Part shown: positions 14,158-35,041 of the stretch, in pieces
Position numbering within the stretch: the stretch's first letter is position 1
Layout: each line of letters starts with the position of its first letter
Assembly: GCF_013376455.1 (NCBI RefSeq)
Contig: NZ_CP045504.1
Coordinates: 2,191,001-2,255,000, forward strand
Length of the DNA: 64,000 nucleotides
Source: Desulfolutivibrio sulfodismutans DSM 3696
GTDB lineage: Bacteria > Desulfobacterota > Desulfovibrionia > Desulfovibrionales > Desulfovibrionaceae
Reading direction: 5' to 3'
Program-made: the position numbers and the translations under genes
The notes under the pieces: model-generated
Told to the model about the DNA's origin: nothing
Seen by the model: only the letters and a program-made list of their open reading frames with translations
Databases searched by the model: none

Positions 14158-14385
14158 GCTCCCTCCGTCCGGTTGTCTGTGTCCAACTCTTGGTCCGTAT
14201 GGGCTGGGTACCGACGCCCAGGGAGATGGTCCGCCGCCGCCCGCCTCCCCCACCACGCCCCTTCCATGCCCGTACATATCCTGCGAAAAAAAGCCTTCTC
14301 AAACTCCGTATCGCTTAGAAGATGGCGCAATTCCTGTCAAATGCGGAAGCATCGGATCACTGCCTCCTGACTGCCGACACGGCAA

Positions 14386-14625
14386 AAAAGAAAGGCCCCA
14401 TCCATGATGGACGGGGCCAGTAGGGGTAAACTCAGTGTTTTTTGCTTTTTTTAGGAGTTGTCTTAGCCAATTCTGGAGAGCTGGTGGTTACTCCACCTTG
14501 AGTTTGCCAGTTTTTTCGGTTTCACCGGCCTGTTTATGCTCTCCTTCAGAAGGCCATCTCCGCGTCTCTCTTGCCCAATGGTCTCGCCTCCGTTGAGGTT
14601 GCAACCGAAAACCGCCTTGGGACAC
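14386..14625 (-). ncRNA. Putative intergenic RNA, copy A of a two-copy family
   Basis: No ORF is supported here, yet the segment is repeated with clear conservation at 34766-35006. The inferred RNA starts at G 14625 and ends after a terminator whose stem is GGCCCC(G)TCCA / TGGA(T)GGGGCC (14394-14418), followed on the minus strand by a T-rich tail. A 32-nt block (14575-14606) and a 21-nt block (14478-14498, a GGTGG/CCACC hairpin with AGTAA loop) are identical in both copies, while the spacer near 14420-14460 is not. A short CCTC-AACG-GAGG hairpin lies in the first block. I do not recognise it as 6S, tmRNA, SRP or RNase P. Confidence 0.75.
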
Positions 14626-14631
14626 GATTAC

Positions 14632-14660
14632 TATATAGGCCCGGGCCGAAAGCTTGTCCA
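14632..14660 (-). promoter_or_regulatory. Sigma70-type promoter of RNA copy A
   Basis: On the minus strand, TGGACA (14655-14660), 17-nt spacer, TATATA (14632-14637). The same spacing and hexamers precede the second copy, and the A-rich stretch further upstream is also shared. Confidence 0.75.
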
Positions 14661-21953: not shown

Positions 21954-22733
21954 TTAAAGCTTCTGACGAAATTCTTTTATATTCTCTTCCAACTTGCCAA
22001 GAGCCATCTTTACATTATCAATCTGATCAGGCGTCCATTCGTCGGTAATTTTAACCGCTTTAATTACCTTAGTAATACCTTCAATCGACTTCTTGAGCAT
22101 TTCGGCTTTGTGACTATGCGGACGGGTAATTTTCCGAACCTCGTCACTGGTCAGCCCTCTCTCTTTAAATTTCTTGAAGGTAGCTCGCATTTTGGCTTCG
22201 GTCTTTTCCTTAGCGATCTCTACCAACACCCGGCGGGAACAAGCTGCATTCGAGCGAAGCTCTTTTCTCACGTCCTCGGGCAATCTCATGATGCTGAGGA
22301 TTTCAGTCACGGTGGAACGCTTTTTCCCGATCATCTCGGCAAGCTGATCCTGCTTGCATTTCTTCTTCTGCATATAGCGGTCAAGGGCTTCAGCTTCTTC
22401 GACCGGAGTCAGATTCTCCCGGAACAGGTTTTCAACCAGGTTGAGTTCCTCGCCTTCCTTCGCAGTGAAGATGGCAGGAATCTCTTTAAGACCAGCCTTT
22501 CCAGAAGCCCTGTACCGTCGCTCACCAGCAACGAGGATAAGTTTCCCTTTGTCGTCTTGCCGGAAGAGTACGGGCTGGATGATGCCGTGTTTCTTGATGG
22601 AGGAGACAAGTTCATCAAGCGCCTCTTCATTGAAATATTTTCTCGACTGGTTGGGGTCTTTGTGAATAGATCCAACGGGAATCTTGTATAACATGCCGTC
22701 TTCATAGCTGCTTGTAACCGTGTTCTCAGCCAT
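21954..22733 (-). CDS. ParB/RepB/Spo0J-like partition protein
   Basis: 259 residues. The N-terminal ParB/Srx fold has VGSIHKDPNQSRKYF, GIIQPVLF and the arginine patch GERRYRA; then ENLFRENLTPVEEAEA and a helix-turn-helix (QLAEMIGKKRSTVTEIL). These proteins bind parS-like DNA and hydrolyse CTP to slide. The second of two adjacent ATG codons is preferred because AAGGAGG sits 5 nt from it. No ParA is next to it, so it may be an orphan regulator or work with a distant ParA. It lies downstream of the AT-rich repeat region and the replication gene. Confidence 0.88.
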   Translation of the reverse strand: MAENTVTSSYEDGMLYKIPVGSIHKDPNQSRKYFNEEALDELVSSIKKHGIIQPVLFRQDDKGKLILVAGERRYRASGKAGLKEIPAIFTAKEGEELNLVENLFRENLTPVEEAEALDRYMQKKKCKQDQLAEMIGKKRSTVTEILSIMRLPEDVRKELRSNAACSRRVLVEIAKEKTEAKMRATFKKFKERGLTSDEVRKITRPHSHKAEMLKKSIEGITKVIKAVKITDEWTPDQIDNVKMALGKLEENIKEFRQKL

Positions 22734-23106
22734 CATGTCCTCCTTAAAGCGATTTTAGTAGAAACAGTCATGCAAATTCATTTTGAATTTCAAAATATGG
22801 GTAGTTTTTGGAATGCAAGCGGAACACATCTTCCAAAACTATCACAACTTAAGCACATCTAACAATACTCTCAAATCTTTGCAATACAAATTTATATAGG
22901 GGGATTACTACTTTGAGTAATCCCCATAAAAATATATATAAGGATTTTGCAATTGCAAATGTAATTATTTTAACCGGTTACCGTTTGCAAAATATTTTGC
23001 ATTGGAATTGGAAATGGAATGTAAATATATAAAATTTAACAGTAAAATTTTGCAAATGAAATTGGAATTGCTTGGAATTGGAATTGGTTGAAAATAGCAA
23101 GGGTTC
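22734..23106. other. AT-rich repeat region, candidate origin or partition site
   Basis: 373 bp without genes between rep and parB. It contains four TTGGAATTG motifs (23002, 23062, 23072 and overlapping 23078), five TTTGCAA-type sites in either direction (22878, 22946, 22953, 22984, 23048), and a perfect 10-bp inverted repeat GGGGATTACT/AGTAATCCCC (22900-22925). Iteron-like repeats in AT-rich DNA beside a replication gene suggest oriV; the inverted repeat could be the ParB site. Both roles are inference. Confidence 0.55.
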
Positions 23107-25023
23107 TCAACTTTTTAAATATAAACTCTTTTTGTTACCTTGCATTTCCTCTACGATAATACTCCGTTCAATCGCTTCGGTGATCCAACTTCTAAGCGTA
23201 TTTCGACTAGGTGACTTCTGCCCTTTCTCAGTCAAGATGTCGGTCATCCTCGATACTAATTCTTGATGAGTAGCTGCTTTTCCGCCTAGCGCATGTATTG
23301 CTGCCAATACGGTATTGTCTTTACTGCTTGCTTTAACTGGCTCGTTCTCAACGATTTCATATCTGAGGTTGGGGGTTCGGCGAAGATTCAGTGACCCAAG
23401 TGACTCCGAGTCTCTGCTTTTCAGATTGACGAGTTCAAACAAGTCATCTTTGCGTTTTTTCAGTTCCAAACTTCCCGAGTTCCAGTCTCCAATGGCGCTT
23501 GCACCGCGACCACCCGAGTTCCCATTGCCGCCATCCGCCTTGCCAAGATGATGTACCACCATCAATGTTACCTTGAGATCAGAAGCGAAGTCCTTGATTC
23601 CATCCAAGACTTTGCGCATGGCTTGGTTGCTATTTTCGTCGGCATCGTGAAAACTAATAAGCGGATCGAATACCAGGATATCAGGAGCTACCTTGTGTAT
23701 TATTCTGGAAAGTGACGATAGGAATTGCGGGTCACTAAAAATGCCTCTTGCCCGTGCATCACCCTTTTCTCCGGCAAATATAATGTTATTCCTCACATCT
23801 TCAGGCAATGGCTTGCCGTCGAACATCAACTGTTGCCTCCTGTAGATGCTGGCAGCACTGTTTTCAGCCTGGAAAATCAGTGACCGATACTTCCCATTGA
23901 TCTTGAACCGGCCAAGGAAACCCTCTTCCGGCGGCGAAGCCAGTTGCATGAGCATGTCCAGTGTGAAGAGAGACTTTCCAACACCCCCTTTGCCCAGAAT
24001 CATGAGCGGTTCATACTTGGGCCAGAGGCCGTCTATGATGAATTCCATCTCCGGCTTTAGAACTTCTAGATCGCCAAGCGTGACTGTTTCAATGGGCTTA
24101 GCCTCACACATATTTTCGGTGAAGACCCGTGCGACGGCTATCTGATGCACCAACCGTTTGATTCTGTTTTGTCCATATTCGCGGTGTTTCTCACCGATGG
24201 GGAACTGTTCGAAAATGGATAGAATAGTTTCATCTGATTTTTGCGCGAGAACCAAACTATCAATAACGGACATCTCTACTTCTGAGCGTGTTCCTTTCGG
24301 ATGTGAGTATAAAATCTTCACCTTCACGGAATCTGGCACATTCATGGATTGCAGGTCTATTCTGGGCAACGTGTCTGGATCGATCTGAACAGCCTTTGAA
24401 ACTGCCTCTTGGACACGTGAGGTCTCCTTCCGTTCTTCCCCGCCAAGGGACAACGCAAGAAGCCAGTCGGGAGCGGGAGCGATTGGAACAAAGTATTCAA
24501 TGCGATATGGCTGACCCGTAGCAGGATGGATTGATCCTGGCGCGACAGCCTGCCTTCCATCCCCGATAAGATCGAAGATGACACATTCATCGTCCTTGAC
24601 AGTTCTACTTTTGTATATTTTACCGTCGGAAGGGGTGCTATAGTAGAAGTGACGACTTTTGCCACCCGACTTGATTGTCAAGGTTTCAGGTAGAGAAAAG
24701 TTTTTTTCAAATAAATAGTTATTGAACTTTTCAGCGTGATCTTCGTCGATGATCAAGAGGGTATTTGACGGCCCGCCGGTGATCCCAGCGTTCATCCCCT
24801 TGAAGTCTTCAGCTTTAAATGGTCTTTTGACATGGCACCAGCGTTGCCATCCTGATTCCACGGGAGATTTGTTTCTACTTGGATTCGAATGGTTCTGGTG
24901 CAGGGGGATGAGCGAGAAGCAAGAGGCCAATCCTTCATAGAGCTGCATCCTGCTAGAGTCTTTCGAGAGATCGATTTCCGACAATGTTTTCAAGACGATT
25001 TCGTTGAATTTTTCTATAGACAT
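23107..25023 (-). CDS. Primase-polymerase / RepA-like ATPase replication protein
   Basis: 638 residues; ATG 25023 (MSIEKFNE) has an AGGTG site. The N-terminal 200 residues look like an archaeo-eukaryotic primase (bifunctional primase/polymerase): WQRWCHVKRP, the acidic LLIIDEDHAEKF, and GDGRQAVAPGSIHP. The C-terminal part is a RecA-type AAA_25 ATPase (RepA-like) with Walker A GKGGVGKSLFTL and DILVFDPLISFH. This fusion replicates plasmids and integrative elements. It sits with parB and a repeat-rich gap, forming a replication cassette for the left island. Confidence 0.85.
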   Translation of the reverse strand: MSIEKFNEIVLKTLSEIDLSKDSSRMQLYEGLASCFSLIPLHQNHSNPSRNKSPVESGWQRWCHVKRPFKAEDFKGMNAGITGGPSNTLLIIDEDHAEKFNNYLFEKNFSLPETLTIKSGGKSRHFYYSTPSDGKIYKSRTVKDDECVIFDLIGDGRQAVAPGSIHPATGQPYRIEYFVPIAPAPDWLLALSLGGEERKETSRVQEAVSKAVQIDPDTLPRIDLQSMNVPDSVKVKILYSHPKGTRSEVEMSVIDSLVLAQKSDETILSIFEQFPIGEKHREYGQNRIKRLVHQIAVARVFTENMCEAKPIETVTLGDLEVLKPEMEFIIDGLWPKYEPLMILGKGGVGKSLFTLDMLMQLASPPEEGFLGRFKINGKYRSLIFQAENSAASIYRRQQLMFDGKPLPEDVRNNIIFAGEKGDARARGIFSDPQFLSSLSRIIHKVAPDILVFDPLISFHDADENSNQAMRKVLDGIKDFASDLKVTLMVVHHLGKADGGNGNSGGRGASAIGDWNSGSLELKKRKDDLFELVNLKSRDSESLGSLNLRRTPNLRYEIVENEPVKASSKDNTVLAAIHALGGKAATHQELVSRMTDILTEKGQKSPSRNTLRSWITEAIERSIIVEEMQGNKKSLYLKS

Positions 25024-25198
25024 GATGACACCTGGACAAACAACTCCACGCCAATGGAGTTGGCTTAGATTTGTTTCGCAATGTCGGCGCGCCGACATCA
25101 GGCCAATTACGTACGTGATGACAGAGGGTTGCTGGCTATTTTCCTGAAGGCGGTGATGCGCAGGATCGTAGGAATGGACGGCGAAGACGCGAGCAATA

Positions 25199-25236
25199 AG
25201 AAAAGGGGGAAGGCTTTTTCAACCATTCCCCCTTCA
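25199..25236 (-). terminator. Rho-independent terminator
   Basis: AAGGGGGAA (25203-25211) and TTCCCCCTT (25226-25234) form a 9-bp stem, and the minus strand continues with TTTTCTTATT. It follows the small zinc-ribbon-like gene. Confidence 0.8.
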
Positions 25237-25256
25237 CGGTGGGATATGCTTCTAGT

Positions 25257-25535
25257 TTAGCATTTCACTTCGACCCAATCGAAGTAATAGCCATCATTTT
25301 CATATTCTTCAGCTTGCTTATCTGAGAGCGCGAGTTGTTTCTTGCGATATTCCTCATACAGGGCATCAAGATTGTTTTTTATCTCTTCATATGAGTGCGT
25401 TTTTGAAAGCGGTACATAGTACTTCTTGTAACAATCAGGGCATAAGAATTTCCACGTTTCATCAGGATTGGCGAAGAACCCGTGACCACCCCTTTGACAT
25501 TTCATTTTGATTTTTCCTTTGTTTCCTTTTGACAT
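25257..25535 (-). CDS. Small zinc-ribbon-like protein of recombinase module A
   Basis: 92 residues starting at 25535 with ACGAGG upstream. KCQRGGHGFF and LCPDCYKKYY supply at least three cysteines plus a His that could bind zinc. The rest is a charged helix. It directly follows the large integrase gene, just as the Cys-containing gene at 54010 follows the second integrase, so it is probably part of a conserved module, though the two small proteins are only loosely alike. Role unknown. Confidence 0.65.
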   Translation of the reverse strand: MSKGNKGKIKMKCQRGGHGFFANPDETWKFLCPDCYKKYYVPLSKTHSYEEIKNNLDALYEEYRKKQLALSDKQAEEYENDGYYFDWVEVKC

Positions 25536-25591
25536 GGCAGACCTCGTAACGCCCGGTTTTGGGGGCCTTCTCGGCCCCCGTTATGATGTCG

Positions 25592-26707
25592 TTATGACAA
25601 AGATGGCATCAAACTCACGGCGCGTTCCTTCTCGCCCTGCAGGTAGTGATAATACGTGTCCGCAGTCATCTTGACGGTGGAGTGACCCATCATCTTTGAT
25701 ACTGCGGCGAGGTCAGCACCTTTGCTCAAAAGCGTAGTGGCAAAGAGGTGGCGCAAATCGTACATTCTGGCTGAATATTTTATTTCGGCTCGTTCGCAGG
25801 CATTATTGAATGCCTTTCTCATTGTCGTGAGCCGTTTCCCGCGATACTCGACGACATATTCCGAGGTCGCAGCTTGCTTCATCTCCTTCAGCCGGGGGAT
25901 GAAGTTCGGATTGATGGGCACCGTTCTGAACTGCTTGTTTTTTGTCGCATAGATTTGGGCGGTGCCTTTCTCCAAATCCAGATTGGCCCATTTCAGGGAA
26001 AGCAATTCTGACGGCCCCGGCCGTGTTCCCAGGTTGAAGCAGACCTCCATGGCCCATCGAAGGTGAGGTTCCGCCTCCTTCATGATCTTCTTCACGTCCT
26101 CGAGGGTGAGTTGCACATCCCGAGGCGTTTCTTTCGACTTCTTCCTGCCCTTGAGAGGGTTGACCTTGGTCAGGCCCATTTCCAGGCCAAAGTTGAAGAT
26201 CGCGTCCACGTAATCGCAGTACCGATTGACGGTGTGCTGGGACCTCGGCTTTCCAGTGACAGAGCTTTCCGCTTGAAACTGCCGGATGAAAGGGAGCATG
26301 TCGCCGTGATAGGTCATCTGGTCCACGACCTTTTCCCCGAGCACGGGCAAGAACTGATTTTTCAAAAGCACTGAAACATTGTGGATATGCCGCTGCGTCC
26401 TTCCGGATGCCGCCAGATGTTCCAGGTGTTTTTTTGCCAAGTCCTTGAACCTCACGGCTGACTCTTCAGGGTTGTTGAGAGTGCGCTGAAAAGTCAGAAA
26501 CGGGTGATCTTGTAATCTCGTCTGTGACGTGAAGGAAACAGCATCAGGAAGTTCAGTTCCTGACGTTTTGGCCGACTTCACAGCGGTGTTGAAAGCTTCT
26601 GCCAAGCCGAATGCCTCGGGGCCTCTGCCAAAGGATTTGTCTTTTCTTTTACCCGAGTCATCGTGATAAAAGACCATCCACCTACCGTCGCGCTGGTATA
26701 CTCCCAT
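25592..26707 (-). CDS. Tyrosine recombinase/integrase, large partner (module A)
   Basis: 371 residues; ATG 26707 (MGVYQRDGRWMV) has GGAG upstream and matches the start of the relative at 54321-55496. An N-terminal arm-binding strand region is followed by a SAM-like core-binding domain and the catalytic domain: Arg in LGTRPGPSEL, YDLRHLFAT (Tyr replaces the usual first His of box II), GHSTVKMTADTYYHY with His and the nucleophile Tyr. It probably integrates and excises the left island with the small recombinase upstream. Confidence 0.92.
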   Translation of the reverse strand: MGVYQRDGRWMVFYHDDSGKRKDKSFGRGPEAFGLAEAFNTAVKSAKTSGTELPDAVSFTSQTRLQDHPFLTFQRTLNNPEESAVRFKDLAKKHLEHLAASGRTQRHIHNVSVLLKNQFLPVLGEKVVDQMTYHGDMLPFIRQFQAESSVTGKPRSQHTVNRYCDYVDAIFNFGLEMGLTKVNPLKGRKKSKETPRDVQLTLEDVKKIMKEAEPHLRWAMEVCFNLGTRPGPSELLSLKWANLDLEKGTAQIYATKNKQFRTVPINPNFIPRLKEMKQAATSEYVVEYRGKRLTTMRKAFNNACERAEIKYSARMYDLRHLFATTLLSKGADLAAVSKMMGHSTVKMTADTYYHYLQGEKERAVSLMPSLS

Positions 26708-26737
26708 AACGGAACTCCATGGGGTTGAGGTTATCCA

Positions 26738-26770
26738 AATGAAAAGGGGCCGATGAGGCCCCCTTTTTTT
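26738..26770 (-). terminator. Hairpin between the two module A recombinases
   Basis: GGGGCC (26746-26751) and GGCCCC (26757-26762) with a 5-nt loop. T runs flank it on both strands, and it lies between the small and large recombinase genes, where it could attenuate readthrough. Confidence 0.7.
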
Positions 26771-26786
26771 AACGATTTTTAGACTA

Positions 26787-27344
26787 TTATATTTCATGCA
26801 TCAGAATTTCTTCGACCTCCTCTTCCTGGATTCCAAGATAGCGCCGTGTGATAGACGGATTCGAATGGTTCAACCGTTTTGACAGGACTTCCCAGGAGAC
26901 GCCGAATTTCTTGCGCTGCTGGTAGGTCCAGGTTTTCCGCAAGGTATGCGCGCCGTAGTTGCCTTTCAGGTTCACAGCCGCACACCATCGCTTCACCATC
27001 TTGGTGACGGCGAAAGTGGTCAGAGGATAGTTTCTGCCCTTCCTGCTTTTGAACAGGAAGTCAGCGTCCCCGAGCTGTGCGGCCGTCAGATGCTTGTCCA
27101 GCGCAGTCTTGATTTCCTTGTTGACGATGAACACGTTTTCCTTGTTGGTCTTTTTCTCCTTCAAGGTAATGCGGTCGCCAACCTTGCAGTCTCGCAGGGT
27201 CTGGACCCGAAGGTTCAGTAAATCCTGGACGCGTAGCCCAGAGTTCACCCCCATCACAAACAGCAGCAGGTCTCTCGGACTTTCTCGCAAAATCTTCTTT
27301 ATGTTTCGGATGTCGCTGGAGGCGGTGATCGGTTCCACTTTCAT
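26787..27344 (-). CDS. Small tyrosine recombinase, catalytic domain only (module A)
   Basis: 185 residues; ATG at 27344 has GGAGG upstream. It contains only the catalytic domain: Arg in GVNSGLRVQDLLNL, HTLRKTW (His and second Arg) and HSNPSITRRYLG (His and Tyr nucleophile). It lacks arm- and core-binding domains, so it is about half the length of a normal integrase. The frame is intact and is repeated at 55857-56414, arguing it is functional and not a fragment. It may act with the large partner. Confidence 0.9.
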   Translation of the reverse strand: MKVEPITASSDIRNIKKILRESPRDLLLFVMGVNSGLRVQDLLNLRVQTLRDCKVGDRITLKEKKTNKENVFIVNKEIKTALDKHLTAAQLGDADFLFKSRKGRNYPLTTFAVTKMVKRWCAAVNLKGNYGAHTLRKTWTYQQRKKFGVSWEVLSKRLNHSNPSITRRYLGIQEEEVEEILMHEI

Positions 27345-27569
27345 GCATTTTCCTCCAAATTCCAGTTTTGCCTCCCAGAGATGTGAAACCGGACATTCAA
27401 AAACCCGGCGGGCATCTCCCCTTGGGGAGGCTATTTAATAACTCGTTAAATTTCTTGGATTTTAACAACCAATCCCAGTCAATGTCCGTTTCTACATAGA
27501 AACGTACTTTCCCATTTTTATTATTTTTATATAACTTTTGACAAAGTTAAAGAATTTTTGGCGCAGAAA

Positions 27570-27604
27570 CGAAAGAAAATGCCACGCTTCGAAGCATGGC
27601 ATTC
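27570..27604 (-). terminator. Terminator after AbrB-like gene (module A)
   Basis: AATGCCA (27578-27584) and TGGCATT (27597-27603) with an inner GCTTCGAAGC stem, T-rich tail on the minus strand. The same hairpin follows the relative at 56771. Confidence 0.75.
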
Positions 27605-27610
27605 TCGCGC

Positions 27611-27967
27611 TTAAGCCTTGGTGAGGATGATGCGTTCATCCTCGACGGAGACTCTGAACTCATCCCCATACTCGATGTGCATGCCCTGCAAATCGACCTT
27701 TTCCAGGTAGATCTTCAGTTCGAGCTTCTTGTTGACTCGGTAGCAATTCGAGCCCTTGAGATAGAGCCCCTTGACTTCGTAAAGGTACTTGTCATCGTTC
27801 ATCAGCTTCAAAATATGCTGCTTGAACGTCTGGCGGTGCTTGATTTCAAGCTTTGCCATGATTTCATCCGCATGCATTCCTGCATTGATGCATTCGCGCA
27901 GCATTTTGGGGTTGTATCGAGACTCGAATTTCTTTTCCGTGGTTTCATGTTCAGTTTTCTTTGTCAT
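27611..27967 (-). CDS. AbrB-like putative transcriptional regulator (module A)
   Basis: 118 residues; AAAGGAG lies before the ATG at 27967. An N-terminal helical region (RYNPKMLRECINAGMHADEIMAK) could be a helix-turn-helix. The C terminus (YGDEFRVSVEDERIILTKA) closely resembles the end of SpoVT/AbrB DNA-binding domains. It is the first gene of a module with the two recombinases, and its relative at 56771 is in the same place in module B. It probably controls recombinase expression. Confidence 0.75.
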   Translation of the reverse strand: MTKKTEHETTEKKFESRYNPKMLRECINAGMHADEIMAKLEIKHRQTFKQHILKLMNDDKYLYEVKGLYLKGSNCYRVNKKLELKIYLEKVDLQGMHIEYGDEFRVSVEDERIILTKA

Positions 27968-28228
27968 GTTTTTCTCCTTTGAGTATTATATTTCTATATT
28001 TGACGGAAGATTATGCAAATAAATATGAATTTTGCGCGCAAAACCACCTAAAAAGGGAGCTTTTGCATCTCGTTTCATGGGGAACCCTGGATTTGACCCC
28101 AGAATGCCTTCAGGCGCGTTTTGGGTCACGGGCAAGGGAAAGCTCGGGAAAAGGGTCAAAAAGGCCGCAGAGGGGAGCTTTGCGAGGCATTGTTTTCAGG
28201 AGTCATTGCCGAGGCCCCGCACAGAGCT

Positions 28229-28270
28229 AAAAAAAGAAAGAGGAACCCCGGTTTGAGCCGAGATTCCTCA
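28229..28270 (-). terminator. Rho-independent terminator with overlapping second hairpin
   Basis: On the minus strand GAGGAA...TTCCTC encloses an inner CGGC/ACCG-type stem and is followed by TTTCTTTTTTT. The adjacent CCTCAT CTAA ATGAGG hairpin (28266-28281) shares CCTC, so the two folds exclude each other, as in an attenuator. Confidence 0.7.
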
Positions 28271-28313
28271 TCTAAATGAGGCATTCCAAACTCTCCCTGG
28301 CGAAGATGATACT

Positions 28314-28508
28314 TCACCAAGGAGAGTCGGTTTCAGGGTCGAGTGAAACGTCACCGTTCCAAGCGCCCTTCACTTCCGGACAGGCGGTTTTCCCGCATCC
28401 GGCGGTAGCGGAAGATAAATGGATATTATTTTTTGAGATGTGTATTCGTACAATTTCAAAGTCGCTTTGTTTTAAGCCACCATGAGTCCAACTTCCATCT
28501 TCATTCAA
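28314..28508 (-). CDS. Possible small protein
   Basis: 64 residues with a protein-like middle (FEIVRIHISKNNIHLSS, two Cys). No ribosome site precedes the ATG. The end overlaps a perfect-looking inverted repeat (28290-28327, CTCTCC...GGAGAG), and a terminator follows at 28229. A transcript certainly seems to end here; whether it encodes this protein or is an RNA is open. Confidence 0.35.
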   Translation of the reverse strand: MNEDGSWTHGGLKQSDFEIVRIHISKNNIHLSSATAGCGKTACPEVKGAWNGDVSLDPETDSPW

Positions 28509-28665
28509 ACCAATTTTTCAAAATTTCATGCGTTTCATCTTCCGCCGTGTCCTTACGACACGCAGCCACCCCCAAATAGCGGATTCCTCCACAAATCCCT
28601 GCCGAAGCAGCTTGTTCAGGGGCTTCCTATGGTCTCATATCCGTCCATAAAGGACCGTCCCGCAC

Positions 28666-28821
28666 CTAATCGCGTCCGCATGCCTCAGCTATGAACTTCA
28701 GTTTGCCGTGAACTTCGTCCGGCATACGAGCCACCGTGGTCTCTCTCGATTGCTCGAAATACGGGCCAGCCCAAAATCGCAGCCCCTCCCCAAGCCGGAT
28801 TGCTCCGTACCTGGTTGGCAT
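28666..28821 (-). CDS. Small ribbon-helix-helix (CopG/Arc-like) protein
   Basis: 51 residues, ATG 28819-28821, TAG 28666-28668, preceded by a close GAGGA. The C-terminal half (RETTVARMPDEVHGKLKFI) has the strand-helix-helix pattern of ribbon-helix-helix repressors, which often have only 45-60 residues. It lies between the satellite-like operon and the recombinase module and could be an element repressor. Short and without wider context, so moderate confidence. Confidence 0.45.
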   Translation of the reverse strand: MPTRYGAIRLGEGLRFWAGPYFEQSRETTVARMPDEVHGKLKFIAEACGRD

Positions 28822-29245
28822 TCCTCAGGCGGCGCACCTCGATGGAGTCGGATGCGAAGGGTATTCTGAGTGAACTATTTTTTGATTTCAGCTAGTGTGC
28901 GCAGGTATAATGCCTACGCCAAAACGCTGGACCGGTGATATGATGCATAGCGCCCACGGCATTTTACTGCCTCGTGCATGCAATTCTGTAAATTGATTTG
29001 AAGAGATTGGAATTGAACTATTTCGTGATCGCGTAAAGAAACGAGCTTCATTAAAATTGTTTGAAAATCTCATCAAAGTATATATTGTTAACCTAATTTC
29101 TATATGAAGATCGAGTATATTAAATAATTTTTGCCGCATAAAATAAAGCTGGGGACATCGATCCCGCTGCTGGGTTTCTCGAATTGCAGCGAAACCAATA
29201 TTCCCAAAGTCTTTCTATCGAAGTTTCTTATCCTCCAAGGGGGGG
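28822..29245. other. Gene-free region after DpdA-like gene
   Basis: About 420 bp, AT-rich on the right. No supported gene, repeat or RNA seen. Confidence 0.5.
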
Positions 29246-30553
29246 TTACTTCAAGTGGCAAGGAAATCCGATGTCCTTGATCGTCCGCACCATATACTCC
29301 TCAAGGGTCGCTTCGTCCCGCCGGTCGACGAACCATTTATGCCAGAACCAAGTCCGCTCCAGAGTTATGGTGATGGTCTTTTCCATGTGGGGTGAAAATG
29401 CCTTCGGGTACTTTTGAGCAATGTCCTTAAAAATCCTGGTCAAGCGCCCTTTCAAATTCGTCGGGCTCGTTGCCTTGCCGAGTTCCCCAATAAGGTCGTA
29501 CTGGTCGATGACCATCCCAAAGAACTCGTCCAACTGAAGATTGCTGAACACGTTCAAAGGGCTGAAGGCCGCCGCATTCTGAAGCCTTACGCCATTACGG
29601 CGGCGATCCATTTCCGAAAGCAGCACCTGATAATGGCTGTCGTCTGCGGCTATCCCGCGAAGGATATCCTGCGGGGCGTCCAGCAAGGATGGATATATCT
29701 GAAAATCCGCCCCTTGGGCTACGTACAGCGGCACATCAGCATTCATCCGAACGGTATGTATGGGGTTGATCGAATCATACGACGTCTGCACATCCGCTGC
29801 CCCACCGAAGTAGCCTCGAAACAGCTTTTCCAGGAAAACAATATGAAACCTATCTGAGGGGGCGTATACGCCAAGGTAATGGATCTTCAGGCCGTCTCCA
29901 GCGTGCGGCCCTTGCATATGCCGATAGAGGATGTAGTAGCTCATGCCGGTGAAGGGCGTGAACGAGATATTCGTGGCTTCCTTGAGCCCAACCATCCCAC
30001 CAATGGCGTGGTTTCGAACGAATTTCTCCATCCCCAGTTCGGCATAAAGATGCTTCCAGATGGCGAACTGCTCCTGCATCTTGAAGTGCCAAACAAAGAA
30101 AAATTTATTTTGAAGAGCCTCATGGCGCTCCAAGACAGACCGCGAGGCACATAACGAGTCGGTGTTCGCCTGTAATATCTTGGCGACCGTATTGAACGAC
30201 TCGTATTTCAGGCTGAAAGGGATGTCCAACGAGAATATTCGATCATATTCTTCGAGTTCGCTTTCGAGATAGACCGTGTAACAGTCGACCAGCATGAGGA
30301 TTTTTGAAGGCGGAATATCGCCCTTGATGAATGAATAGCCGCCAGAATCCGTGACGATTTTCCCCCCGACAGGCACGGTAAAAAGCCTGGCAAACTCGCG
30401 GATATCGCAAGCCACCTTCTCGAGGGTGTCTAGCCCGAAGTCTTGCTGCCTCAGGCCGCCAATCAGCGAATACAGGGCGAATTTCGTCTGACGTGTTATC
30501 GCTTGCTCCATGGCGACGTCCGTCCCGCCGCCTGCGACGTAGATGTAACCCAT
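29246..30553 (-). CDS. TGT-superfamily protein, DpdA-like
   Basis: 435 residues; GGAGG lies 7 nt before ATG 30553. The barrel-type motifs of tRNA-guanine transglycosylase/DpdA relatives are visible: VTDSGGYSF near residue 67 (TGT DSGGFQ), FSLDIPFS, AIGGMVGLK and IHYLGV, with SYDS around residue 255 as a candidate nucleophile Asp. DpdA proteins swap guanine for a 7-deazaguanine in DNA of phages and genomic islands. No preQ0 synthesis or Dpd partner genes are nearby, so the base would have to come from the host. Last gene of a minus-strand operon with a P4-type helicase. Confidence 0.6.
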   Translation of the reverse strand: MGYIYVAGGGTDVAMEQAITRQTKFALYSLIGGLRQQDFGLDTLEKVACDIREFARLFTVPVGGKIVTDSGGYSFIKGDIPPSKILMLVDCYTVYLESELEEYDRIFSLDIPFSLKYESFNTVAKILQANTDSLCASRSVLERHEALQNKFFFVWHFKMQEQFAIWKHLYAELGMEKFVRNHAIGGMVGLKEATNISFTPFTGMSYYILYRHMQGPHAGDGLKIHYLGVYAPSDRFHIVFLEKLFRGYFGGAADVQTSYDSINPIHTVRMNADVPLYVAQGADFQIYPSLLDAPQDILRGIAADDSHYQVLLSEMDRRRNGVRLQNAAAFSPLNVFSNLQLDEFFGMVIDQYDLIGELGKATSPTNLKGRLTRIFKDIAQKYPKAFSPHMEKTITITLERTWFWHKWFVDRRDEATLEEYMVRTIKDIGFPCHLK

Positions 30554-30604
30554 TTCAAATCCTCCATGGAGGGGGGAGGCTCTCCCTCCCCCCCCCTGTC
30601 TCCG

Positions 30605-31414
30605 TTAAACACGCCCTTCGTATAGAAGCTCGTAGGTCGTGAGGTTGTTGATCATGTTCGGCTTCGACGAGGTTCTCAGCCAGTATCCGTGGACGTTGCG
30701 GTAGACACCGAAGCTCAGCCCCAGCTTTCCCGCCAGGGCCAAGAAGTTGCTGCTCGTGAGCATCAGGTCCGGTGAGCGATCAGCCAACGACGTGAATGAG
30801 GGCTTGTGAAGATAGTAGGGATTCTTGCCCCGAATCTCGACCTGCTCGAACTGACGAGAGAAGCACATCAAAAAAACAAACCTGGTCTTGGCCACGTATC
30901 TCTTGATAGCGTCCAGGTCGTCGACCTCGACCTCTTCGCCAAGCTTGTCTTTCTCGCTCGGGAGCGTTACCGAGGCCGTCGGTTCCTGCGGCGTGGGCTT
31001 CGTGAGCTGGGCCTTGGTGTAGCCGTTCGTGAAGACAAGCTCAGTGCCGAGGTCGTGGATTTCAATTTCCGACTTCCCAGCCAAGCTCGCGAGGTTGTCG
31101 ATGTCCTTTGCGCTGGCCAGGAAGCCGAAACTGACCCCCGGGTCGCTTGTGCCGACAGGCTGAACTCCGACGGGTATCGACTTTTTAGCCGGCAGCAGGA
31201 TGTTGGCGAGGTCGATGTCCACCCAGAAGTGGGGCGTCCCTATTGCCTGCACTATCCTGGAATTGTCGGCGTAGATCGGACGCGGCCCATGAAGCTCGAC
31301 CAGCTGGCGCGTGAGCCCGACGAACGCCTTGTAGCGCGCAGGAGCTATGGTGCAAAGGGGTTGAAGTGGCGGCGAAAATGCCGGAGCCAGGTGCGTGGTG
31401 AAGGTGCTTTCCAT
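30605..31414 (-). CDS. Unknown protein, possibly sliding-clamp-like
   Basis: 269 residues; AAGGAGGAAATC precedes ATG 31414. Two halves each suggest an alternating strand/helix pattern: FGFLASAKDIDNLASLAG then IEIHDLGTELVFTNG, and LTSSNFLALAGKLG then LSFGVY. This resembles DNA sliding clamps of phages, which would fit between a helicase and a DNA-modifying enzyme, but no diagnostic motif exists. It is 51 bp downstream... of the DpdA-like start and 59 bp from the helicase stop, so co-transcription is likely. Function uncertain. Confidence 0.55.
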   Translation of the reverse strand: MESTFTTHLAPAFSPPLQPLCTIAPARYKAFVGLTRQLVELHGPRPIYADNSRIVQAIGTPHFWVDIDLANILLPAKKSIPVGVQPVGTSDPGVSFGFLASAKDIDNLASLAGKSEIEIHDLGTELVFTNGYTKAQLTKPTPQEPTASVTLPSEKDKLGEEVEVDDLDAIKRYVAKTRFVFLMCFSRQFEQVEIRGKNPYYLHKPSFTSLADRSPDLMLTSSNFLALAGKLGLSFGVYRNVHGYWLRTSSKPNMINNLTTYELLYEGRV

Positions 31415-31473
31415 GATTTCCTCCTTAGGTTGAATGAAAATGCGGAGGCCCCTTTGCGGAGCCTCCGCGACGC

Positions 31474-33060
31474 TCAGCCGATGCGCTTGATTGCGATGCC
31501 CTGCCAGAAACGGCTGGGGTTGCCGCCTTTCGCCTCAAAGTGCCGGGCTGTGAGCATCTTTCCGAACTGGATTTTCCCGAGAGCCTTCGAGCCACAGTCC
31601 CGAGTCCAAGCCAGGTAGTCAGAATAAAGGAGGCCTTGTTGGGTCCGGGCGTTGGGGTCGGAGATATCGGTGCGCTCCTCCAGGTACCGCGAAATGTGGT
31701 CGTTTTCCTGAAAATAGGCGGCCGTCGCATCGAGGACGACTTTGGGCGGGTTCAGCCCCTGCTTCCTCCACTCCAGGAAGCCGCGTACAGCCCAAGCGAA
31801 AATTCCGGACAGTTCGCGCTCGACCTTGCCTTCAAGCTCTTCCTTGTTGACGGTGTTGTCGAACTGGTGGCGGAAAGGTACGACCCGAATCCGGCGACGC
31901 ATCGCGTGATCCGTGCTCAAAAGTGCCGGAAGGTGGTTCACCCCCATGAATATTTTTATCCTAGGCCGGAATTGGACCGGATCCTTTGCAACCCCGCGCC
32001 CGGATAACTCATCTCCGCTCACCAGCGCCTTCATGACCCCTTCGCCTAACGTGCGGTCCTGATCAGTCTCGATTGCAAAGCCTGAGCGTTTCCCTTCGAC
32101 TTGCCGATAAAAATAGGACATGCCGTACATTGTCGATTTAAGGATCATCTCAGGATTGAGCGTCAGGCCGTACTCGCCCGAGCCCAGGATGCGGAGGTTG
32201 GTCCCGAGGAAGAGGCTTTTCCCGTTCGCTCCACAACCGTGCAGGATGGTCATGACCTCCTCATAGGTCGAGCCGGTCATGCTGTAGCCGAATTGCCGCC
32301 GTAGATAATCGGCCAAGTCCCTGTCGCCGCATGACATTTTCGTGATGCTGTCTTCCCAGAAAGGGCATTTGGCATCCGGCTCCCAGGTGACAGGTGCAAC
32401 TTTCGTCACCTGCTGCGATGGGTGGTGCGGAGCCAACTCCAGGGTTTCCAGGTCGAGCAGGCCGTTCTGCAGGTTGATTTTATAATGGTCGGCGTCGAAC
32501 TCGCGGGACGTCACCTGGATGCGCGGCGCGAGGCTGGCAAGGGCGAGGGCCTTGTTGATCATTCCCAGGGAACGAACTTTTCCCTGAAACTTCAGAAAGT
32601 CCTCCTTGTCGACCGGCTGCCCGTCCTCGGTCATATGGATGCGGCCCTCCTCGAACTCGCGGTGGACCTTGTCCAGGGCTTCCAGCGCCCAGCGCTTTGC
32701 CAGATGGCCATGGTCGCCATACTTCGTGCCGTCCCAGGCATAGAGGAGCTTTCGGTCGGTCAGGTACCGCAGGCTGTCCTGACAGGCGGCAAGAACACGC
32801 TGGCTCGCTCCGACCTCGTCAAAGTTGGACACTACCTTTACCGTGGGGGGCCGGACGACGCTCCCCCCCACCTCGGGATCGGCCGCCGGGGCCTCGGCTT
32901 CTTCAGGCGCTGGTTGTTCCCCTCCTTGCGGAACTGCGTGCTCTTCCTCGTTCGGCGGCGGGTAGCCGCCGGTTCCCTCGGCCTGATCACGGGCCGAAAG
33001 CGCGTCGTCCTTGTGCTCCTCGTCATGCGGGGTTGGTGCGGATTCTGGATTGTTGAGCAT
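31474..33060 (-). CDS. P4-family primase-helicase (SF3 helicase, D5-like)
   Basis: 528 residues; AGGAGGGTGT precedes ATG 33060. The first 90 residues are acidic and Pro/Glu-rich, probably disordered. A D5_N-like region (about 120-260) leads to the SF3 ATPase with Walker A GCGANGKSLF and IFMGVNHLP (sensor-type Asn), then RRRIRVVPF. Such proteins start replication of phage satellites and plasmids. No zinc-binding primase domain is seen, so it may be helicase only. First of three closely spaced genes. Confidence 0.9.
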   Translation of the reverse strand: MLNNPESAPTPHDEEHKDDALSARDQAEGTGGYPPPNEEEHAVPQGGEQPAPEEAEAPAADPEVGGSVVRPPTVKVVSNFDEVGASQRVLAACQDSLRYLTDRKLLYAWDGTKYGDHGHLAKRWALEALDKVHREFEEGRIHMTEDGQPVDKEDFLKFQGKVRSLGMINKALALASLAPRIQVTSREFDADHYKINLQNGLLDLETLELAPHHPSQQVTKVAPVTWEPDAKCPFWEDSITKMSCGDRDLADYLRRQFGYSMTGSTYEEVMTILHGCGANGKSLFLGTNLRILGSGEYGLTLNPEMILKSTMYGMSYFYRQVEGKRSGFAIETDQDRTLGEGVMKALVSGDELSGRGVAKDPVQFRPRIKIFMGVNHLPALLSTDHAMRRRIRVVPFRHQFDNTVNKEELEGKVERELSGIFAWAVRGFLEWRKQGLNPPKVVLDATAAYFQENDHISRYLEERTDISDPNARTQQGLLYSDYLAWTRDCGSKALGKIQFGKMLTARHFEAKGGNPSRFWQGIAIKRIG

Positions 33061-33327
33061 ACACCCTCCTTGTCGTCGGCCCGAGCGGGCCGTGATTGAG
33101 CCAGGATAGCCTAGGCCCAAAAAAAGGGTTTTTTCTGGCATGATGACCGGGGGGGTAGGCAAAGAAACCTGAAAAATGGGTCCAACTGGTCAAACGGGCG
33201 GCGGTGAATGTCGTGGGGGGCTCAGCGAGATGTCACAAATGTCACGGCATGAAAAAATCTTTTATATAAGATAGTTACGTCGAAATGCTCCGGCTTCCCC
33301 GTGACATTTCGCGACACCGTCAAGCAA

Positions 33328-34296
33328 CTACTTGGATTTCAGATGCTTTTTGGATACCGGGAGGTCAAGGCGTTTTCTCATTGGGATTTTTTGCAGAAGA
33401 GGACAGCCGTGCTCTTTGTTGCAGGGGCATGTATCAATAGTCTTTTTGCTGCCAGGGCCATATATCCGACTTGATGGAGCAACTTTTTTTAACTTGTTCT
33501 TCGCGCTAACCTCTTTAGAATGATCAATCACTCCCGTCAGGATAAAAAGATGAAGCAGTTGCGTATGCAAAAGCTCACATCCATATTCCCATGCTTCTGT
33601 CGCGATGGCTCCGATATCGCTATTTTTCTGCTCGTCTCTTTTCTTTTTATTCGCGCTTGCGCCTATTGAATGAAATTTTCCGAGAAATGTGTCCTCAGTA
33701 AATTCGGAAAATAATTCTATTTGGTGCAATCCGATGCCTAAGCTTATTGCGCTTTTCAGCACATCCGCCCGGCCATCCTGGTTGGCAAAATTGGCGTCCT
33801 TCATAGTCCGAAAAACATTTTTTATGTAAAACCTGAGAAGAGCTATTCGGACTATTGCCTGATTTTTCATGACCTCCTTGTTTTCCTGTGTTGCAATTTT
33901 CAGTATCTTATTAAAGTAATCTCGATCATATTTCTTCATCTCCCATATGTTTTCAACTCTTGGCGATGTACATCGAACAAATCGAAAAGTGTCGGATATT
34001 TCTTCGAATTTTTTGCTAATATGGCCGTATTTTGCCCTAAGGTCTGCTTCAACGTTTTCTTCAGCGAGGATATACCTGTTTAACTCGTCAATGATTTTTA
34101 TTGCATCAATTAAGCTTATGTACCCGTCTAGAAATTCATCTATCACCTCCTCAAGATCTTTTATGTCCGAACTATCTGTTTGAAAAAACATGTCGAGATA
34201 GTTTTTAGCTTCAACGATGTTATGTTCTTCTTTGGACAGAAGTTCACACATCATATTCCCGACGTCTTTAATGGGTATAAGATTTTTTAAACTCAT
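33328..34296 (-). CDS. Unknown protein with C-terminal Cys cluster
   Basis: 322 residues. I prefer the ATG at 34296 (MSLKNLIP), which has GGAG 6 nt upstream, over the ATG four codons earlier. Largely helical and charged. Near the C terminus CPCNKEHGCPLL places three cysteines with a His, a possible metal site. The frame is AT-rich relative to its neighbour helicase. It lies 268 bp upstream of the helicase, same strand. I do not recognise the family. Confidence 0.65.
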   Translation of the reverse strand: MSLKNLIPIKDVGNMMCELLSKEEHNIVEAKNYLDMFFQTDSSDIKDLEEVIDEFLDGYISLIDAIKIIDELNRYILAEENVEADLRAKYGHISKKFEEISDTFRFVRCTSPRVENIWEMKKYDRDYFNKILKIATQENKEVMKNQAIVRIALLRFYIKNVFRTMKDANFANQDGRADVLKSAISLGIGLHQIELFSEFTEDTFLGKFHSIGASANKKKRDEQKNSDIGAIATEAWEYGCELLHTQLLHLFILTGVIDHSKEVSAKNKLKKVAPSSRIYGPGSKKTIDTCPCNKEHGCPLLQKIPMRKRLDLPVSKKHLKSK

Positions 34297-34653
34297 TGTT
34301 TTCTCCATCTAATTGATCGTTTTCGGCATTCTCGCATCAACATGCGTTTAACACACGCATAAATGCTGGGAAATGGCGTTTATTCGTGCCACAGGGGCGG
34401 CGGATTGGGCCGATACCGCGATTCTGTAGGAACGGCCGAAAGGAATGTCACAAATGTCACCATGCTATTTGATGAATTATTTTGGATAGTTATTGTCATC
34501 CTGGTACTGGCGGATGTGACATTTCATTCTCAACCGAGGTGCCGATCCAGGGGAAGAGAACCCCAAAAAACAGGCTTTGGGATCCTCCTGCGATTTCCTG
34601 GATTCTAGCGGGCCGGCCAGGCCCTAGTCCAGAAAATTTCCAAACGGGCAGGA

Positions 34654-34762: not shown

Positions 34763-34765
34763 GAA

Positions 34766-35006
34766 AAAGAAAGGCCCCATCCATGATGGACGGGGCCAGT
34801 AGGTGGTAATCGCTATATGATGTTGTTGTTCTCTGGCAGTTGTTTTAGCCAATTCTGTTGAGCTGGTGGTTACTCCACCTGAAGTTTGCCAGTATGTTCG
34901 ATTTCACTGGCCTGTTTTGCTCTACGTCAGAAGGCCTTTGCCGAATCGGTATTGTCCAATGGTCTCGCCTCCGTTGAGGTTGCAACCTGAAAACAACCTG
35001 GGACAC
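34766..35006 (-). ncRNA. Putative intergenic RNA, copy B of a two-copy family
   Basis: Same layout as the segment at 14386-14625: inferred start G at 35006, the identical 32-nt block at 34956-34987, the identical 21-nt hairpin block at 34860-34880, and the same terminator stem (34773-34797) with T-rich tail to about 34766. The two copies differ most just before the terminator and in the region around 34930-34955. No ORF is conserved between them. The RNA lies downstream of the DUF4405 gene on the same strand, with its own promoter. Confidence 0.75.
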
Positions 35007-35012
35007 GATTAC

Positions 35013-35041
35013 CATATAGGCCTGCGCTGAATGATTGTCCA
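35013..35041 (-). promoter_or_regulatory. Sigma70-type promoter of RNA copy B
   Basis: TGGACA (35036-35041), 17-nt spacer, TATATG (35013-35018) on the minus strand, matching copy A in hexamers and spacing. Confidence 0.72.

Follow-up and report, generated by a model that had tools for sequence, protein, structure and literature searches.

A structured RNA gene with its own mini-ORF

The window analyzed here (64,000 nucleotides of Desulfolutivibrio sulfodismutans DSM 3696, contig NZ_CP045504.1) contains two intergenic genes on the minus strand for an RNA of about 240 nt, located at 14384-14626 (copy 1, from the inferred start to the end of the U-run) and 34764-35007 (copy 2), with promoter, core, and terminator in common. 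We rate this RNA as a new structured small RNA (sRNA) family with an unusual mini-open reading frame (mini-ORF) that is independent of its peptide. In our estimate, the chances are about even that it represents a stand-alone, trans-acting structured sRNA family of the order Desulfovibrionales, in which ribosomes on the mini-ORF of the RNA serve as the gate.

Identity between the two copies is 83-84%, and the likeness stops just beyond the promoter and the terminator. Both contain an identical block of 32 nt (GGTTGCAACCTCAACGGAGGCGAGACCATTGG), an identical block of 21 nt (AGGTGGAGTAACCACCAGCTC), and the same terminator stem, GGCCCCGTCCA-TCA-TGGATGGGGCC, followed by T's. A first-pass annotation of this DNA had reported these elements together with shared promoter hexamers at 17-nt spacing, and all of them are present, on the minus strand. 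The promoter of copy 1 (14632-14660) consists of the -35 hexamer TGGACA (14660-14655), a 17-nt spacer, and the -10 hexamer TATATA (14637-14632), and that of copy 2 (35013-35041) consists of TGGACA (35041-35036), a 17-nt spacer, and TATATG (35018-35013). The intrinsic terminators are located at 14384-14418 (stem 14418-14394, U-run 14393-14384) and 34764-34797 (stem 34797-34773, then the U-run), respectively. Both copies were more stable in folding than dinucleotide shuffles, with z values of -2.8 and -4.1, and no further full copy was found in the genome besides these two.

The RNA recurs in the order Desulfovibrionales

Relatives of the RNA were found by BLAST in the same genus, the same family, and the same order. 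These fall into type 1 and type 2, the latter comprising the Desulfomicrobium copies and a second Fundidesulfovibrio paralogue. Because MAFFT misaligned type 2 against type 1, only type 1 sequences, nine of the BLAST-found relatives, went into the covariance model. The model matched 37 of the 348 genomes of the order, 29 of them strongly (E 2e-7 to 6e-50), with one to six copies each, in the window's own genus (Desulfovibrionaceae, including the sister metagenome-assembled genome Ess09-06), Solidesulfovibrio, Fundidesulfovibrio, and Desulfomicrobium. Since the unit recurs in 29 genomes at strong E values, a chance origin is excluded; the first-pass annotation had proposed just such a search of related genomes. 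No convincing copy was found outside the order: 395 genomes drawn across the phylum gave marginal matches only (about E 1e-4 per genome), which we judged to be chance, and the matches of a genome pattern scan in Firmicutes, Bacteroidota, and others proved on rescoring to be the motif only. Phage, plasmid, and viral-contig sets gave no match.

Rfam 15 had no match in the window at the gathering threshold, and at a relaxed threshold the RNA and its relatives gave sub-threshold matches only, mostly on the terminator. No transfer-messenger RNA was found in the window by ARAGORN and Rfam. We found no published description of the family in the literature searched, where subscription journals were poorly covered.

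Across the 50 copies examined, nearly all retained both the promoter pattern T(G/A)GACA-17-TATAxx, with the spacing almost always 17 nt, and the terminator; a few terminator stems escaped the strict filter yet were visible in the copy sequences, and a truncated copy at locus L049 has no terminator. With few exceptions, complete type 1 copies are 239-244 nt long, and type 2 copies are about 270-310 nt long. In the Desulfovibrionaceae, including copies 1 and 2, L087, and others, the -35 region CTGGACA has a mirror counterpart, TGTCC(C)AG, directly past the start site, which is a possible operator; this mirrored element is absent in Desulfomicrobium. Ahead of the promoter (-330 to -80), many Solidesulfovibrio copies also have in common a C/T-rich stretch of about 250 bp without a clear ORF; loci in which it is conserved are L049, L052, L081, L082, L084, L090-L092, and L094.

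The genes flanking the RNA differ between genera, and no downstream gene is common to them. In Desulfomicrobium (L058-L072), the RNA occupies one syntenic site, in the order histidine-kinase-cluster genes, RNA, a gene of about 890 aa, and a gene of about 123 aa, and its orientation at this site is opposite in different species. Because the neighbors differ between genera and either orientation occurs in Desulfomicrobium, the RNA is not the leader of one downstream gene, and the gene neighborhoods indicate that it is a stand-alone gene. A cis-acting leader or leader-peptide attenuator, which would have a fixed downstream gene, was rejected on the same grounds. Histidine kinases are frequent near the RNA copies; the genomes of these bacteria are rich in histidine kinases.

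The start, frame, and stop of the mini-ORF are kept, but not its peptide

The 32-nt identical block is, by its sequence, a translation start, and it is the most conserved stretch of the RNA. The Shine-Dalgarno sequence is GGAGG in 49 of the 50 copies and GGGGG in one, and it is followed in all 50, at a spacing of exactly 8 nt, by a start codon that is UUG in 44 and AUG in six; the base before this codon is free (A, C, or G). In copy 1, GGAGG (14587-14591, within CCUCAACGGAGG) precedes a mini-ORF at 14546-14578, which runs from UUG (14578-14576) through 10 codons (MGKRDAEMAF) to UGA (14548-14546). In copy 2, GGAGG at 34968-34972 precedes a mini-ORF at 34927-34959, with a UUG start, 10 codons (MDNTDSAKAF), and UGA at 34929-34927. 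The earlier statement that no ORF is kept thus has to be withdrawn, as the 10-codon UUG ORF with its Shine-Dalgarno sequence is found in both copies and an ORF in all 50 members of the family.

The open frame runs for 9-18 codons, and none of the 50 copies has a stop before codon 9. Among 46 unique sequences, the other frames are interrupted in seven (+1) and 31 (+2), and when columns were permuted with relatedness preserved, the frame was stop-free in 0.2% of trials for codons 2-9 and in 0.7% for the 12-codon set. The stop begins between one base inside and six bases before the first stem of the following structure, P2, in 47 of the 50 copies. In most cases it is the UAG that P2 contains (G-UAG-AGC or G-UAG-CGC). 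Copies in which this UAG is out of frame or altered have a substitute UGA, UAA, or UAG 4-6 nt upstream of P2. The kept frame strongly suggests that the mini-ORF is translated. The peptide is unconserved, with 23 synonymous versus 196 non-synonymous differences among close pairs, where about 62 synonymous ones would be expected without selection, and the entropy is the same at all three codon positions. As the start, frame, and stop position are kept but the peptide is free, the apparent target of selection is translation and the place where it ends, not the product.

Covariation supports a three-way junction

Downstream of the mini-ORF, the RNA is predicted to form a three-way junction composed of P2 (GUAGAGC/GCUCUAC), P3 (GCC.../...GGC), and P4 (GGUGG-loop-CCACC). 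Over 52 aligned matches, 95.1% of the cells were paired and 16 of the 20 pairs had compensatory double changes, in an alignment that was fitted to the covariance model and takes in three doubtful members. None of 500 shuffles reached the observed values, and slid controls fell to 36-55% paired. A sequence-only alignment of nine members gave the same structure with weaker support. Covariation of the stems, which the first-pass annotation had named as a check, was strong in P2, P3, and P4; with both transcription signals conserved and Rfam without a match, its description of a structured RNA that is missing from Rfam and has a promoter and terminator of its own is supported.

The junction of copy 1 spans 14475-14544, where covariation supports closure by P2, GGAGAGC (14544-14538) with GCUCUCC (14481-14475). 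The P3 arm GCCGGU/ACUGGC and the conserved AAAC joining strand after it (14506-14529) were supported by covariation and the alignments, and the P4 hairpin GGUGG-AGUAA-CCACC (14483-14497) has double changes in four of its five pairs across the family. The junction of copy 2 spans 34857-34925, where P2 pairs GUAGAGC (34925-34919) with GCUCAAC (34863-34857), in line with covariation and the minimum free energy fold; P3 lies at 34911-34888 and P4 at 34879-34865.

In nearly every copy, P4 is capped by a GNRA-like tetraloop with one additional base, A, U, or G (AGUAA, AGAGA, UGAGA, GGUAA, or AGCAA), and the strand joining P3 and P4 is A-rich and opens with a conserved (G)GCAAAC. The GNRA-like loop and the conserved joining strand suggest a tertiary fold. 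The combination of GGCAAACC and a GNRA hairpin resembles the cyclic di-GMP-I riboswitches, a likeness that Rfam scores do not back. A CCU/AGG hairpin sequestering the Shine-Dalgarno sequence, for which one-sided changes compatible with pairing were seen, is not claimed, because single-sequence folds had no uniform preference for this pairing.

A possible ribosome gate and its alternatives

The arrangement of the RNA suggests a division of labor, in which ribosomes probably help to control it. The 5ʹ half would be a ribosome-loading module, with a strong Shine-Dalgarno sequence, 8 nt, UUG or AUG, and 9-18 codons, and the 3ʹ half a folded module, with the P2/P3/P4 junction, the A-rich joining strand, and the GNRA-like capped hairpin, followed by the terminator. 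A ribosome terminating at the foot of P2 would cover the 5ʹ strand of P2; translation and junction folding should therefore compete. From the positions of the ORF and the fold, we infer that translating ribosomes would keep P2 open and that, when initiation does not take place, the junction would fold and act on a separate partner, so that the folded junction would be the active form, acting in trans. More tentatively, and with some doubt, the input of this trans-acting RNA may be ribosome traffic itself, with a mini-ORF whose peptide has no function reporting the status of initiation or termination through the opened or closed state of the junction, which would in turn act on another partner. 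Hfq was not found in the window's genome, which is in keeping with a mode of action that relies on structure and not on Hfq.

Several observations weigh against ribosome gating. Related copies are non-independent, hence the ORF statistics are overstated; three of the 50 copies (L050, L051, and L077) read through P2 before a stop; and single-sequence folds give no one consistent state of the Shine-Dalgarno region. RNA pairing may hold the third codon positions, which would likewise lower synonymous changes, and because of this possible restraint and the non-independence of the pairs, we do not claim positive selection. A simpler model would have the mini-ORF serve stability without any switching: ribosome loading would protect the 5ʹ end against RNases, and the position of the stop would keep ribosomes off the fold. 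The strong Shine-Dalgarno sequence, the kept frame, the stop at or before the junction, and the freely varying peptide all fit this model; it is nevertheless unlikely, as the stop in most copies falls one base into P2, and a ribosome that terminates there would sit on part of the fold instead of standing clear of it. It is also quite unlikely that the sRNA is structured but purely non-coding, with GGAGG...UUG as a protein- or RNA-binding motif and an incidental open frame. The 5ʹ motif is conserved more than any other part of the RNA, and the structured half taken by itself has strong covariation, both of which would suit such an RNA, but the UUG/AUG swaps amid free neighboring bases, the constant 8-nt spacing, and the substitute stops near P2 are hardly explained by it.

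Could the peptide itself be functional, as in a classical dual-function sRNA or a small ORF gene? The Shine-Dalgarno sequence, start codon, and open frame are conserved, and the first residues, M-(G/D)-x-(S/T), are recurrent; however, the peptides vary within and between genomes (for example, ESIVGEFSSQ, QTEDEQHFMK, HTRRLRGC, and KLDDQISRRQA) and the changes in the mini-ORF are mostly non-synonymous, which makes a peptide function improbable. The first-pass annotation had proposed CsrA binding, and a CsrA-sequestering RNA of the CsrB/RsmZ kind would be in keeping with the CsrA gene of the window's genome and with the GGA that the 5ʹ motif and some P4 hairpins contain. This idea is not supported because GGA motifs are not enriched: their count is not above the expectation from composition, and most Solidesulfovibrio copies have just two or three. 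In addition, Solidesulfovibrio (GUGUGGUAAACAC) and some of the Desulfomicrobium copies (GACGGUGAGACCGUC) have lost the GGA of P4, and the Csr/Rsm families of Rfam gave no match at the gathering level, so that we regard a CsrA sponge as highly improbable. One family member lies about 1 kb away from a PrrB/RsmZ match below threshold (28.8 bits versus 44), at L039:2622-2740 on the minus strand.

Genomic context of the copies

The RNA copies of the window had been placed in chromosome-like sequence, which is half right, as a mobile element or satellite (21954-34308, minus strand) lies between them. It encodes two adjacent tyrosine recombinases (25592-26797 and 26787-27344), a P4-family primase (31474-33162), a Prim-Pol/AAA protein (23107-25098), and a ParB-like protein, all on the minus strand. 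Loci L049 and L094 also have P4 primase genes of a similar kind close to their RNA copies. At L049:5984-7241, a truncated copy, related up to the 5ʹ strand of P4 and then giving way to foreign sequence, precedes a complete copy by 1 kb, an arrangement that looks like recombination of an element within the RNA gene. A general role of the RNA as an integration site was rejected, since integrases are near few copies only.

Copies clustered within tens of kb all have the same direction (L049/L082/L092 in one genome, L084, L050/L051, L057, and the window), and one Solidesulfovibrio genome contains five copies within 80 kb. The common direction within clusters suggests tandem accretion of RNA copies.

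Significance and comparison with known systems

The regulatory RNAs of sulfate-reducing bacteria are poorly known, and the present work adds a covariation-supported family for them. The mini-ORF is an unusually clean case, in which selection appears to hold the start, frame, and stop but not the peptide. If the ribosome is indeed the signal, sensing of translation would be separated from attenuation in cis.

VcdRP of Vibrio cholerae (PMC8672173) and SR1 of Bacillus subtilis (PMC8501984) are dual-function sRNAs, and VcdP is a conserved 29-aa protein (PMC8672173). Like them, the present RNA comes from a small gene of its own, in which a short ORF adjoins a predicted regulatory RNA segment. It differs in that its ORF has 9-18 codons, encodes an unconserved peptide rather than a functional conserved small protein, and has its stop at a three-way junction with covariation, and in that Hfq was not found in the host genome. 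An independent transcript, as in that class, is predicted from the promoter and terminator, which nearly all copies have kept. The CsrB/CsrC/RsmY/RsmZ sponges (PrrB_RsmZ, RF00166) are likewise intergenic sRNAs with their own promoter and terminator in CsrA-encoding hosts; in contrast, the present RNA has neither GGA enrichment nor repeated GGA hairpins, and it has an ORF and a three-way junction.

The odc1, ilvB, and fthC motifs are structured upstream ORF or leader-peptide motifs, and the stop codon of the fthC motif is often within the following stem (PMC8632094, PMC11109978). Such motifs also have a short ORF with a Shine-Dalgarno sequence and couple translation to RNA structure, which for the present RNA is a proposal; they control a fixed downstream gene in cis, whereas this RNA has its own terminator and no fixed gene. 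Standalone small ORF candidates, as defined in PMC11109978, resemble the mini-ORF in their conserved start and stop codons and in having no tie to a main ORF. The difference is that the mini-ORF has no codon-position conservation, and the RNA structure is conserved instead.
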